Shown piece after piece: positions 3,721-60,683 of a DNA stretch of 64,000 nt. The DNA comes from Halorussus amylolyticus (lineage in GTDB: Archaea > Halobacteriota > Halobacteria > Halobacteriales > Haladaptataceae). The translations under genes and the position numbers were made by a program. Under the pieces are notes generated by a model. It worked only from the letters and a program-made list of their open reading frames with translations, was not told the origin of the DNA and did no database searches. Position 1 is the first letter of the stretch; each line of letters opens with the position of its first letter. The stretch is from NCBI RefSeq assembly GCF_004143485.2, contig NZ_ML974134.1:37698-101697 (forward strand), in the 5' to 3' direction.

Positions 3721-3825
3721 CTCGGCGCGCGAGAAACGCGCGAGGGACGACTGAGCGACCGGAGGGAGTGAGGGAGTCGGCTGGGGAGGACGTGGCCGTC
3801 GCGGTTGCGGTGCGGTTCTTCTAGG
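3721..3825 (-). repeat. dispersed structured repeat, family A, partial copy (reverse)
   Basis: Read on the minus strand this gives the family A boxes in order: ACCGCAACCGCGACGGCCAC, CCTCCCCAGCCGACT, then CCCTCGCGCG followed by a CGCGCG/CGCGCG hairpin with loop TTTCT. The CAGCACGCGCC box found downstream in other copies is missing. It faces the forward copy at 3909 across a 16-bp inverted repeat, so the two copies form a large imperfect palindrome between nadM and the next gene. Confidence 0.7.
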
Positions 3826-3829
3826 TGAC

Positions 3830-3902
3830 GTGTGAGCAGGACGCTTCTGTGTCGTCTACAATCTATAACCTTACATTCACCATCAGAGCGTCCTGCTCAC
3901 AC
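3830..3902. repeat. 16-bp perfect inverted repeat between two family A copies
   Basis: GTGTGAGCAGGACGCT at 3830-3845 is exactly complementary to 3887-3902, with a 41-nt A/T-richer spacer. The arms could pair as a long hairpin. The GTGAGCAGGA core resembles the conserved loop of the tRNA-trailing elements at 32385-32393 and 36257-36265. No coding potential is seen. Confidence 0.8.
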
Positions 3903-3908
3903 TCCACA

Positions 3909-4065
3909 AATGAGAAACCGCGACGGCCACACCCTCCCCAACCGACTGCGGTCCTCGGTCGTCGCTCCGCTTCTCCCTGCGGTCCTCATCCCTCGCGCGA
4001 AGAAGGCGGGACGCCAAACTGCGGCGTCCCGCCAGCACGCGCCGGAAGACGAGCCGCGTCTTCCG
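3909..4065 (+). repeat. dispersed structured repeat, family A, copy 1 (forward)
   Basis: Conserved boxes are CCGCGACGGCCACA, CCTCCCCAACCGACTGCGGT, CCTCGCGCG and CAGCACGCGCCGG. The hairpin between the last two boxes pairs GGCGGGACGCC (4005-4015) with 4023-4033 around loop AAACTGC. A second hairpin pairs CGGAAGAC (4043-4050) with GTCTTCCG (4058-4065). Similar sequence continues to about 4165, including a GTCGGACC/GGTCCGAC palindrome near 4082. The other copies are at 7774, 17340 (reverse) and 24294. Confidence 0.8.
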
Positions 4066-4233: not shown

Positions 4234-5052
4234 ATGATAACGCTCGCCTCGGACTTCGGGACGCCCTACCCCGCCGCGATGAAGGGCGTGATACTCCAGC
4301 GAACCGACGCCCGACTCGTGGACGTCGCTCACGACTTCCCCCGCCAAGACGTGCGAACCGCGGCGTTCTGGCTCCGGGAGGTCCTGCCGTACTTCCCGCC
4401 CGCCGTCCACCTCGTCGTGGTGGACCCCGGCGTGGGAACCGACCGCGCCGCGCTCGCGGTTCGGGCGGGCGACCACGCGCTCGTCGGCCCCGACAACGGG
4501 GTTCTGCTCCCGGCGGCCCGCGCGCTGGCGTCGCCCGCAGACGCGGGCGACGCCAGCGCGACGGATACGAGCGCGACTGATGCCGAAATCGAGGTGTTCG
4601 AAGTCGAGTACGAGGACGCGGAAACTGCGAGCACCACCTTCCACGGCCGGGACGTGTTCGCGCCCGCGGCGGCCGACGTTCACGAGGCGGGCGTCGAGTC
4701 GCTCGAAGAATTGGACCGCGTCGTTCCGCGACAAGACTTCGCGGACCTCCGATTTCCGGCCCCCGACCTCGACGCCGAAACCGAGGAGAACTCCGCAATC
4801 GGCGAAGTCCTCGTGGTCGATGGCTTCGGAAACGTCGTCACGAATCTCCCCGGCGACCTGCTCGCGGGCCGCGAGCAGGTCGCCGTGAACGGAGAGAGAA
4901 GTCCGGTCGCTCGCGCCTACGCGGCGGTCGAACCCGGCGACCGCCTCGTCACGGTCGGGAGCCACGGCAACGTCGAACTCGCGGTGAATCGGGGCCGGGG
5001 CGACGAGGCGTTCGGCCTCTCGGTCGGCGACGAAGTCCGGGTGACGTGGTAA
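4234..5052 (+). CDS. SAM hydroxide adenosyltransferase (DUF62 family)
   Basis: Members of this family hydrolyse S-adenosylmethionine to adenosine and methionine; relatives include the halogenating fluorinase and chlorinase. The 272-residue product shows the family landmarks: N-terminal TLASDFG, VVDPGVGTD, GPDNGVLLP, and a C-terminal domain with DGFGNVVTN and VGSHGNVELA. An Ala/Asp/Thr-rich linker (about residues 100-116) separates the two halves. The ATG at 4234 is preceded by a TTTTAC element about 26 nt upstream. The frame is open far upstream, but only through repeat sequence. The gene overlaps the next by seven bases. Confidence 0.9.
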   Translation: MITLASDFGTPYPAAMKGVILQRTDARLVDVAHDFPRQDVRTAAFWLREVLPYFPPAVHLVVVDPGVGTDRAALAVRAGDHALVGPDNGVLLPAARALASPADAGDASATDTSATDAEIEVFEVEYEDAETASTTFHGRDVFAPAAADVHEAGVESLEELDRVVPRQDFADLRFPAPDLDAETEENSAIGEVLVVDGFGNVVTNLPGDLLAGREQVAVNGERSPVARAYAAVEPGDRLVTVGSHGNVELAVNRGRGDEAFGLSVGDEVRVTW

Positions 5053-5663
5053 CCGTGGAAATCGACGCCTTCGGGGTGATGAACGTCGTCGGCCTGCTCG
5101 CGTTCGCGGTCGTCGGGTCGCTCCGGGCCATCGACGCCGACTTCGACGTGCTCGGGGTCGCAGTCTTGGGCGTGATGACCGCGCTCGGCGGCGGCGTCAC
5201 CCGCGACCTGCTGGTGAACACCGTGCCGGTGGCGCTCCGCTCGACGACCGACGTGAGCGTCGCGCTACTCGGCGTCGTCGCGGGAATCGCGCTCGCACAC
5301 CTCGGCGACGACCTGACCGACCACTCCGTGGTGCTGCTGCCCGACGCGGTCGGTCTCGCGGCGTTCGCGACGACCGGGGCGCTGGTCGCGGCAGACGCCG
5401 GACTCACGGCGTTCGGCGTGGTCACGCTCGCCACCATCACCGGGGTCGGCGGCGGACTGGTGAGCGACATCCTCCTCCAACAGGTCCCGTTCGTCCTCGT
5501 GGAGGACTTCTACGCGACCTGCGCGATACTCGGCGGCGTCGTGTTCTGGGCGGTGACTGCGGCGGGCGTCGGCGACGGAATCGGAGCGGGAGTGTGCGCC
5601 GCATTCGTGTTCGTCCTCCGTCTGCTTGCGATTCGCTACGAGTGGGAACTCCCGACCGTCTGA
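5046..5663 (+). CDS. trimeric intracellular cation (TRIC) channel family protein, UPF0126
   Basis: This 205-residue, very hydrophobic protein consists of a tandem repeat of three-helix units. Each unit has the family glycine signature: VMTALGGGVTRD in the first half and ITGVGGGLVSD in the second. Prokaryotic TRIC homologues conduct K+/Na+ across the cytoplasmic membrane. The start is GTG at 5046, overlapping the stop of the upstream SAM enzyme; GTG at 5055 is an alternative. The two genes are probably cotranscribed. The TGA stop (5661-5663) is the triplet duplicated by the 107-bp element that follows immediately. Confidence 0.88.
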   Translation: MVTVEIDAFGVMNVVGLLAFAVVGSLRAIDADFDVLGVAVLGVMTALGGGVTRDLLVNTVPVALRSTTDVSVALLGVVAGIALAHLGDDLTDHSVVLLPDAVGLAAFATTGALVAADAGLTAFGVVTLATITGVGGGLVSDILLQQVPFVLVEDFYATCAILGGVVFWAVTAAGVGDGIGAGVCAAFVFVLRLLAIRYEWELPTV

Positions 5664-5773
5664 TAGTGATTGCTGTGCGTATTTTCAGCACTTCCCAGAA
5701 ATTCTATGTATCGAGGGCCGAATCCGTCGAGCCGTGACTGCCTCCCGGTAGGGAGTCACAGCAATCACTATGA
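5661..5773. mobile_element. 107-bp terminal-inverted-repeat element 1 with TGA duplications
   Basis: The element proper is 5664-5770. TAGTGATTGCTGTG (5664-5677) is exactly complementary to 5757-5770. TGA flanks both sides (5661-5663 and 5771-5773), as expected of a 3-bp target duplication, and the left TGA is the stop codon of the upstream gene. An inner hairpin GTGACT/AGTCAC lies near the right end. No ORF is present. Two more elements of the same length occur at 58855-58961 and 59719-59825. It looks like a MITE; the parent insertion sequence is unknown. Confidence 0.8.
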
Positions 5774-17933: not shown

Positions 17934-18692
17934 ATGAACGCGACACTCGACCACGTGATGATGCGCGTCGAAGACCTCGACGCGGCGCTCGACTGGTATC
18001 AGGACCACCTCGACTACGAGGAGACGGGGCGCTGGGAGGCCGACACCTTCACGAACGTCTTCCTCGCGCCCGAGGGCGCACACGAGGAGAGTGCGGCCCT
18101 CGAACTCACGTACAACCACGACGGTCGCTCCTACGAGATGGGCGACGCGTGGGGACACATCGCGGTCCGCGTCGACGACGTGTACGACGCCTACGAGGAA
18201 CTGATGGACGAGGGCGTCGAGGACTACCGCGACCCCGATTCCTGTGGCGGGTCGTACGCCTTCGTCAAGGACCCCGACGGCCACGAGGTCGAAATCGTGG
18301 AGCGCGACTACGGCGCCGAGTGGAGCCTCGACCACACCATGATTCGGGTCGAGGACGCCGACGAAGCGCTCGGGTGGTACACCCGAAAGCTCGAATACGA
18401 GCACACCGGCCGGTGGGAGTCCGACACGTTCGCGAACTACTTCATGAAGCCCGAGGACGCGGCCGACGAGGCGATGGCCGTGGAGCTGACGTACAACTAC
18501 GACGGCCGCTCGTACGAGATGGGCGACGCGTGGGGCCACCTTGCAGTCCGGACCAGCGACCTCGATTCGGCGTGGGACAGCCTGATGGAACGCGACGCCG
18601 AGGACTACCGCGACCCCGAATCCTGCGACAATCGCTACGCGTTCACGAAGGACATGGACGGCCACGAAATCGAAGTTGTGACGCGGGACTGA
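17934..18692 (+). CDS. double VOC-domain (glyoxalase I-like) protein
   Basis: This 252-residue protein is an obvious internal duplication: residues 1-126 and 127-252 each have LDH[VT]MxRVEDxDxAL, WYxxxLxYExTGRWExDTF, ELTYNxDGRSYEMGDAWGH and DPDSC/DPESC. Each half is a vicinal-oxygen-chelate domain; His and Glu residues at the usual metal positions are present in both. It is most like lactoylglutathione lyases, but haloarchaea use other thiols, so the substrate is unknown. The ATG at 17934 matches the first repeat boundary. Confidence 0.88.
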   Translation: MNATLDHVMMRVEDLDAALDWYQDHLDYEETGRWEADTFTNVFLAPEGAHEESAALELTYNHDGRSYEMGDAWGHIAVRVDDVYDAYEELMDEGVEDYRDPDSCGGSYAFVKDPDGHEVEIVERDYGAEWSLDHTMIRVEDADEALGWYTRKLEYEHTGRWESDTFANYFMKPEDAADEAMAVELTYNYDGRSYEMGDAWGHLAVRTSDLDSAWDSLMERDAEDYRDPESCDNRYAFTKDMDGHEIEVVTRD

Positions 18693-58665: not shown

Positions 58666-58854
58666 ATGCGCGCTCGCTCGGTCGGTCTGTATCGAACGCT
58701 CGCCGCCGCCCTCGCAGTCGCGGCGATTCTCGTCGTCGCCCACCTCGTCGCCCACCCCGTCGCCGAGTACGGCGCGTGGCTCGCGGCGTTCGCGATTTGG
58801 ATGGCGTGGTTCGTGGCGGCCGCGCACGACTGGCTCTCGAACGCCGACTTCTGA
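58666..58854 (+). CDS. small two-span membrane protein, function unknown
   Basis: From ATG 58666 the product is 62 residues with two hydrophobic helices (about 10-27 and 31-50) and a Trp-rich second span (WLAAFAIWMAWFVAAAHDW). A GTG at 58639 would add nine residues. Its TGA stop (58852-58854) is the triplet duplicated by the 107-bp element that begins at 58855. Confidence 0.55.
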   Translation: MRARSVGLYRTLAAALAVAAILVVAHLVAHPVAEYGAWLAAFAIWMAWFVAAAHDWLSNADF

Positions 58855-58964
58855 TACTGTCGGCTGTAATTCTTCGAATAGGGGTGCGTAGAAGAGGGGA
58901 GTGGAGCCGAGGAAACGCTCAATCCCCAGCGGTGATTTCCGCGTAGTTACAGCCGACAGTATGA
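58852..58964. mobile_element. 107-bp terminal-inverted-repeat element 2 with TGA duplications
   Basis: The element proper is 58855-58961. TACTGTCGGCTGTAA (58855-58869) is exactly complementary to 58947-58961. TGA flanks it at 58852-58854 (stop codon of the upstream gene) and 58962-58964. The interior shares no obvious sequence with the elements at 5664 and 59719 although all are 107 bp. Confidence 0.85.
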
Positions 58965-59715: not shown

Positions 59716-59828
59716 TCATACTGTCGGCTGTACGTACGTGAATACCCGTGTCCGAAACCGCTCGTTTTAACGCTCGAACTCCTCGTATCCGCAATCGGCC
59801 GTTCGAAGAAGTACAGCCGACAGTCTCA
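59716..59828. mobile_element. 107-bp terminal-inverted-repeat element 3 with TCA duplications
   Basis: The element proper is 59719-59825. TACTGTCGGCTGTAC (59719-59733) pairs with 59811-59825 except at the outermost base. TCA (TGA on the minus strand) flanks it at 59716-59718 and 59826-59828; the right copy is the stop codon of the minus-strand DUF58 gene. Terminal repeats match element 2; the interior does not. Confidence 0.85.
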
Positions 59829-60683
59829 CTCGAACCAGAGGTCGCCGAACGAGTCGAAGAACGGCGTGTCGGTCTCGACCCGCTCGTAGCGCGCTCTGAG
59901 GTCGCGCGCGACCCCCTCGACCGCGTCGGCGTGGTCGGCGAAGCGGTCGCGATAGCTCCGTTCGAGCCGAGACCCGACGTGCGCTCGGACCGACTCGTCG
60001 GATTCGAGCGCCTCGAACACGGTGTCCCCGGCGGTCGGCAGGTCGCGCTCGCCGGGCGCGACCACGTGCGCGAGGACGACCTGATTCGACGCGAGGGCTT
60101 CGAGTCCGGCGTCGATGGCGTCGGTGTCGGCCAGGAAGTCGCTGCACACCACGACGAGCGCCTTCGAACGGATGGTCGCGGCGTAGTCGGTGAGCGCCGC
60201 GTCGAACGCGGCTTCGCCGTCGGGGTCGACCGCGTTGCACTGCTCGACCAGCCCCATCACTTCGCCGCGGTTCGACCGCCCGCGGTCGAGTCGCTCGGCG
60301 GTCGAGTCGAACGTCGCGAACCGGAAGTCGTTGTGCTCGCGCGCGGTCAGGTACGCGAAGCCGAGGCCCAGTTTCGCGGCGTACTCGAACTTATGAGCGT
60401 CGTCCTCGCCGAAGTCCATCGACGCGCTCGCGTCCACCAGCACGTGGACCGTGAAGTTGCGCTCGGCCTCGAACTGCTTGACGTAGAGTTCGTCGGTCCG
60501 GGCGTAGAGATTCCAGTCGATGAACCGGGGTTCGTCGCCGGGTTCGTACCGCCGGTAGTCGGCGAACGTCAGGCCCTCGCCCACGGCGTCGGTCGTGCGC
60601 TCGCCCTGTTGCTGGGAGCGCGCCCGGCGGTCGCGCGCGTCGTCGAACCGGTCGAGTTCCGCGAGGAACTCCGGGGTTATCAT
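59826..60683 (-). CDS. DUF58 (von Willebrand-like) protein of a MoxR operon
   Basis: The 285-residue protein has the DUF58 core: GEGLTFADYRRYEPGDEPRFIDW, then FTVHVLVDASASMDFG, a MIDAS-like DxSxS metal site, and ALVVVCSDFL. Such proteins act with MoxR AAA+ ATPases as chaperone or metal-insertion systems. Its ATG overlaps the moxR stop (ATGA). It is the last gene of a five-gene minus-strand operon, and its stop is duplicated by the 107-bp element 3. Confidence 0.9.
   Translation of the reverse strand: MITPEFLAELDRFDDARDRRARSQQQGERTTDAVGEGLTFADYRRYEPGDEPRFIDWNLYARTDELYVKQFEAERNFTVHVLVDASASMDFGEDDAHKFEYAAKLGLGFAYLTAREHNDFRFATFDSTAERLDRGRSNRGEVMGLVEQCNAVDPDGEAAFDAALTDYAATIRSKALVVVCSDFLADTDAIDAGLEALASNQVVLAHVVAPGERDLPTAGDTVFEALESDESVRAHVGSRLERSYRDRFADHADAVEGVARDLRARYERVETDTPFFDSFGDLWFE

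Follow-up and report, generated by a model that had tools for sequence, protein, structure and literature searches.

Why should three short inverted-repeat elements in one stretch of haloarchaeal DNA each lie exactly on the stop codon of a gene? The window analysed here, a 64-kb stretch of the Halorussus amylolyticus genome, contains three such elements, each 107 bp long and without an assigned strand. Element 1 (5664–5770) is bounded by TIRs at 5664–5677 and 5757–5770 (TAGTGATTGCTGTG). Its left target copy, the TGA at 5661–5663 (+ strand), is the stop of a gene at 5046–5663 (+) for a TRIC/UPF0126-like protein (PF03458, Gly_transporter), and the right copy is the TGA at 5771–5773 (+). Element 2 (58855–58961; TIR TACTGTCGGCTGTAA) lies between the TGA at 58852–58854 (+) and that at 58962–58964 (+); the former terminates a gene (58666–58854, +) for a membrane protein of 62 aa, which is conserved in the genus and present in 16 of 18 congeneric genomes. 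Element 3 (59719–59825) has its target copies on the minus strand: the TCA at 59826–59828 is the TGA stop of a DUF58 gene (59826–60683, −; PF01882), and a second TCA occupies 59716–59718 (−). The TIRs of elements 1 and 2 are perfect over 14 bp, while the right TIR of element 3 has a single mismatch at its outermost base (ACAGTC). The flanking triplets of elements 1, 2 and 3 are therefore TGA/TGA, TGA/TGA and TCA/TCA, and at all three a real gene ends in frame at the flanking TGA. Our analysis reproduced the description in the earlier note, namely three 107-bp elements on stops, the first with perfect 14-bp TIRs, TGA flanks and the TRIC stop.

The end pattern TANTGNNNGCTGT had five matches in the window, where shuffles gave an expectation of 0.17. 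An Rfam search of the window returned tRNAs only, with no known RNA family at the elements. The window also holds two repeats of other kinds. A long nested inverted repeat (3775–3947, 173 bp, intergenic) has 32-nt arms that are 91% complementary and inner 30-nt arms, and pieces like it occur at L022 5384–5468 in the same genome and at the congener loci L266 and L181. At 18009–18690, a repeat at 381-bp spacing lies inside one gene (161 nt at 78%, 109 nt at 73%) and is apparently a duplicated protein domain.

The elements belong to two families, whose ends are TACTGTCGG / TAGTGATTG. Element 1 is a member of family A, of which the H. amylolyticus genome contains, by BLAST with one query copy, 12 full copies along with two palindromes of 48 bp; elements 2 and 3 belong to family B (ends TACTGTCGGCTGT), for which the same kind of search, again with one query copy, gave eight copies plus fragments. 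Paired ends 65–90 bp apart numbered 11 in the whole genome and 0 with the reversed control pattern. The earlier note had observed that both ends change together between element 1 and elements 2 and 3, and this was correct, since the two kinds of TIR mark the two families. It had also taken the interiors to be unrelated and the elements to differ in this from ordinary MITEs, which was mistaken: interiors are about 75–86% alike within a family, and they looked unrelated because one family A element was compared with two distant family B copies. In family A, the mean column identity of 12 aligned copies is 86%, with 79–86% identity to one reference copy; in family B, the interiors are about 75–84% identical. 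A and B are ordinary divergent MITE families. Their members are short and non-coding, have TIRs of 13–14 bp, amount to 22 copies in the own genome and carry matching flanks in most cases.

The constant length proposed previously holds roughly for the own genome, where copies measure 105–109 bp besides the two 48-bp palindromes, but not for most other genomes. Of 394 genomes of the order, 72 contain the exact 14-base B end. The copies fetched are about 78 bp long (70–82 bp) in most genomes; those from the own genus and from a few other genomes measure 102–109 bp, and a central hairpin is frequent among the shorter copies. The near-perfect 48-bp palindromes L012 and L013 (G000 C1:522894-522941 and C9:95673-95720) consist of two copies of one family A end, likewise lie on stop codons, and are either minimal elements or deletion products. 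At L003, a family A copy (1501–1609) has inserted into a TGA next to which 11 bp of a family B end are left over; both families use the same target.

This target is a triplet. Copies with intact flanks have identical left and right triplets of the form TNA, mostly TGA or TCA and more rarely TAA or TTA; in stop orientation, the targets comprise 18 TGA in the own genome and 39 TGA and 7 TAA in other genomes. Flanks are unequal in a minority of copies, as expected from later mutation or rearrangement. The earlier proposal of insertion into TGA with a 3-bp duplication was right as to the duplication and too narrow as to the target, which is TNA. TAA and TGA are stops, and their complements are TTA and TCA, so whichever base takes the place of N, one strand reads a stop codon, and an insertion into a stop rebuilds it. 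The empty sites agree with this. Orthologues of the element 1 host share its C-terminus and lack the element, as in Halorussus litoreus, where the gene ends ELPTV-TGA. The C-terminus LWFE of the element 3 host is followed directly by TGA in nine congeners without the element, and the element 2 host ends in ADF, TDF, AEF or ANF and then a stop in 15 congeners (TGA in 13, TAA in two). The three loci of the window are thus empty in relatives, with a single stop codon at each, and the proposal that insertion rebuilds the stop and leaves the host gene unharmed is borne out. TGATATGA was seen at none of these empty sites, which indicates that insertion duplicated the whole 3-bp stop rather than TA.

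Three TGA or TCA flanks say little by themselves, any TNA being a stop triplet on one strand, and the association with stops could in principle be accidental or a mere consequence of this property. We regard such an explanation as very improbable. The three stops in the window are backed by orthologous C-termini, and at 20 of the 22 own-genome copies (the exceptions are L002 and L007) the TNA serves as the in-frame stop of a gene whose codon use looks coding, whereas about 7–13% of the TGA sites in the non-coding DNA of this genome are stops. The background rises near genes, to 21–29% of the TGA/TCA sites within 100–150 bp downstream and 47–51% of those within 30 bp. Against the strictest null, non-coding TGA/TCA sites at most 30 bp downstream, the count of 20/22 has a P of 2e-5 to 1e-4 with the own-genome background and of 3e-3 with the background of other genomes. 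The genes underlying these counts were called with our codon-usage caller, a non-standard annotation for which NCBI-annotated plasmids served as a check. There, four of nine copies lie exactly where an annotated CDS ends, the CDSs being those of an SCP2 protein (Haloferax mediterranei), a CPBP protease (Haloarcula sp. CBA1115), a universal stress protein (Halomicrobium urmianum) and nadE (Haloarcula marismortui).

The suspicion that three stops out of three exceed chance is thus upheld by the own-genome copies. The stop enrichment that the earlier note had proposed to look for across haloarchaea is strong in H. amylolyticus and weaker elsewhere, where 34 of 60 copies that could be evaluated lie on stops, as do 10 of another 18 (together 44/78, about 56%, counts that are partly dependent, many of the copies coming from related species). 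With only about half of the copies elsewhere on stops, insertion is not strictly specific to stop codons. On a Halovenus salina plasmid, a family A-like element with the end TAGTGATTGTTGTGG (L197 2504–2612) splits a transposase gene, so that stop codons are not obligatory. Target context was rejected as the cause of the bias: non-coding [CG]TGA[GA] and CTGAG sites are not mainly stops, and the former are stops in about 6–16% of cases in the non-coding DNA of the own genome.

What moves these elements? A MITE copy on a Haloarcula plasmid adjoins an IS630-family transposase, and the end of that transposase's element resembles the MITE end. This insertion sequence (IS) is about 1070 bp long, its transposase matches NF033545 (transpos_IS630) and PF13358, and 13 of the 14 bases of its left end in four plasmid copies, TACTGTCGGCTGAA, are those of the B end. 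Seven copies have identical TNA flanks, and one copy in G008 is flanked by TGA/TGA; several copies have unequal flanks, and those of L207 and L189 are not TNA. The IS and the MITE also have in common a subterminal GTACGTGAAGA-like sequence, and a AAGTACGTGAAGA-like sequence at the right end of the IS is present just inside one MITE end as well. A full IS with matching ends, for which a search had been suggested, therefore exists elsewhere in haloarchaea for family B only and is of the IS630 family. Family A has only the TAnTGnnnGCTGT pattern and the TGA target in common with it; a full-length IS with family A ends (TAGTGATTGCTGT) was not found, and no parent turned up in the plasmid records. 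A partner check of about 75 loci for a full-length IS with the exact B end on both sides gave a few distant, chance-like candidates; most ends pair into elements of about 70–109 bp, and single B ends without a clear partner were L118, L130, L147, L151, L153, L156 and L157. A second IS630 subgroup (ISNpe3, ISNma7) was rejected, as its ends differ. A Pfam search for DDE_3 (PF13358) in the genus yielded genes in two species and detected none in the own genome, and no close homologue of the IS630 transposase was found in the MITE-rich genome G060. This suggests that the mover may have been lost or may be a different one.

Judging from their ends, target duplications, empty sites and family relationships and from the matching full-length IS in other haloarchaea, the elements are very probably non-autonomous MITEs of this haloarchaeal IS630-family subgroup. 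A DDE transposase of the subgroup, this one or a lost relative, would move them in trans and insert them at TNA with duplication of 3 bp, as against the TA of IS630/Tc1-mariner elements. An insertion into the stop codon of a gene would leave an intact stop, and since the protein stays unchanged it would be tolerated and retained, in contrast to insertions within genes or in promoters, most of which would be lost. We assign a probability of roughly 0.8 to this explanation as a whole, that is, IS630-moved MITEs whose harmless insertions at stops persist. For selective survival as the main cause of the stop-codon bias, our confidence is somewhat better than even. Full-length IS copies lie on stops in about 1 of 11 cases, which differs from the 20/22 of the own-genome MITEs (Fisher P 7e-6), although the IS sample is small, comes mostly from plasmids and was differently sourced. 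This low share and the Halovenus insertion into a transposase gene point to survival rather than obligatory targeting.

The own-genome bias nevertheless exceeds the survival null, so that an extra preference is possible and survival alone may fall short. A transposase or host factor might steer insertion to the 3′ ends or stops of genes, for example via termination of transcription or translation; the bias persists against non-coding TGA/TCA sites within 30 bp downstream, under either background, and the TNA context alone fails to predict stops. The share of only about 56% elsewhere, the 4/9 among annotated plasmid copies, the family A-like element inside a transposase gene and the rarity of full-length ISs on stops all speak against such steering, and we consider it unlikely. 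It is equally doubtful that, in one lineage or more, an archaeal TNA-duplicating IS630 lineage and its MITEs have an active preference for the 3′ ends of genes, with stops as a safe harbour.

The hairpin could also have been domesticated as a 3′-UTR, positively selected after the stop for stabilising mRNA or ending transcription. The elements form much better folds than their shuffled versions (z −3.2 to −10.4) and lie directly after stops, and some insertions occur at the same gene in more than one species, with the same C-termini (L110/L146, L095/L139). However, any inverted repeat folds, insertions away from stops also recur between species (L097/L149), family A has no clear orientation bias relative to the gene, and the element is absent from orthologues in the genus. 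A functional RNA stem was rejected, because covariation in the inner stem is weak and changes in the TIRs are mostly uncompensated; the latter favours recognition at the DNA level over an RNA stem. We therefore hold a domesticated role to be improbable, somewhat more so than targeting.

The preferred reading, that of IS630-moved MITEs persisting at stops, explains how such elements may settle at low cost in a gene-dense genome, since a stop repairs itself when its 3 bp are duplicated. In archaea, this reading would broaden the IS630 group to include a TNA target, and it would supply a likely mover for widespread short haloarchaeal repeats, of which we found no description in the open-licence literature; open-licence papers likewise yielded neither the end sequence nor a report of IS630 with TNA in archaea. 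The split between 91% of copies on stops in the own genome and about 56% in others makes the question of selection or targeting directly testable.

MITEs of the IS630/Tc1-mariner type are known from bacteria. RUP of Streptococcus pneumoniae is about 100 bp long and non-coding, has TIRs, duplicates TA, and probably relies on an IS630-family transposase acting in trans. The elements described here are likewise about 100 bp long with TIRs, and differ in the TNA target and, in the own genome, in the strong association with in-frame stops. The TA duplication of classic IS630 elements was not observed; both the MITEs and this IS630 subgroup duplicate the 3-bp TNA. The haloarchaeal IS630-family ISs with TACT ends (for example in Haloarcula sinaiiensis pHsi388 and pHsi540 and in Halorubrum ezzemoulense Fb21) resemble the MITEs in the end TACTGTCGGCTGAA, TNA and subterminal sequence, and differ from them in having 1070 bp with a transposase and in lying rarely on stops. 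IS605-type elements and PATEs lack TIRs and target duplication, both of which are present here.

Similar in size are the small mobile repeats SMR-A and SMR-B of Haloquadratum walsbyi, which measure 80–110 bp, have prominent ITRs and lack a transposase (PMC3119063). Our elements share these features, and they could be SMRs moved by another system, given an SMR-A of about 110 bp and an SMR-B of 80 bp (PMC3119063). SMRs are, however, described as having neither target duplication nor transposon-like ITRs, and SMR-A is frequently located inside IS605-type elements and PATEs (PMC3119063), whereas the present elements duplicate TNA, have an end like that of an IS630 element and lie on gene stops. 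Identity with SMRs is quite unlikely. The Haloquadratum plasmid PL47 contained no TIR pairs of MITE size. In the IS630-Tc1-mariner group, Fot and Fot-like pogo elements duplicate 3 bp, TAA, instead of TA (PMC7386202). They belong to the same superfamily group and have a duplication of the same length as the elements reported here, but are eukaryotic and use TAA rather than TNA.
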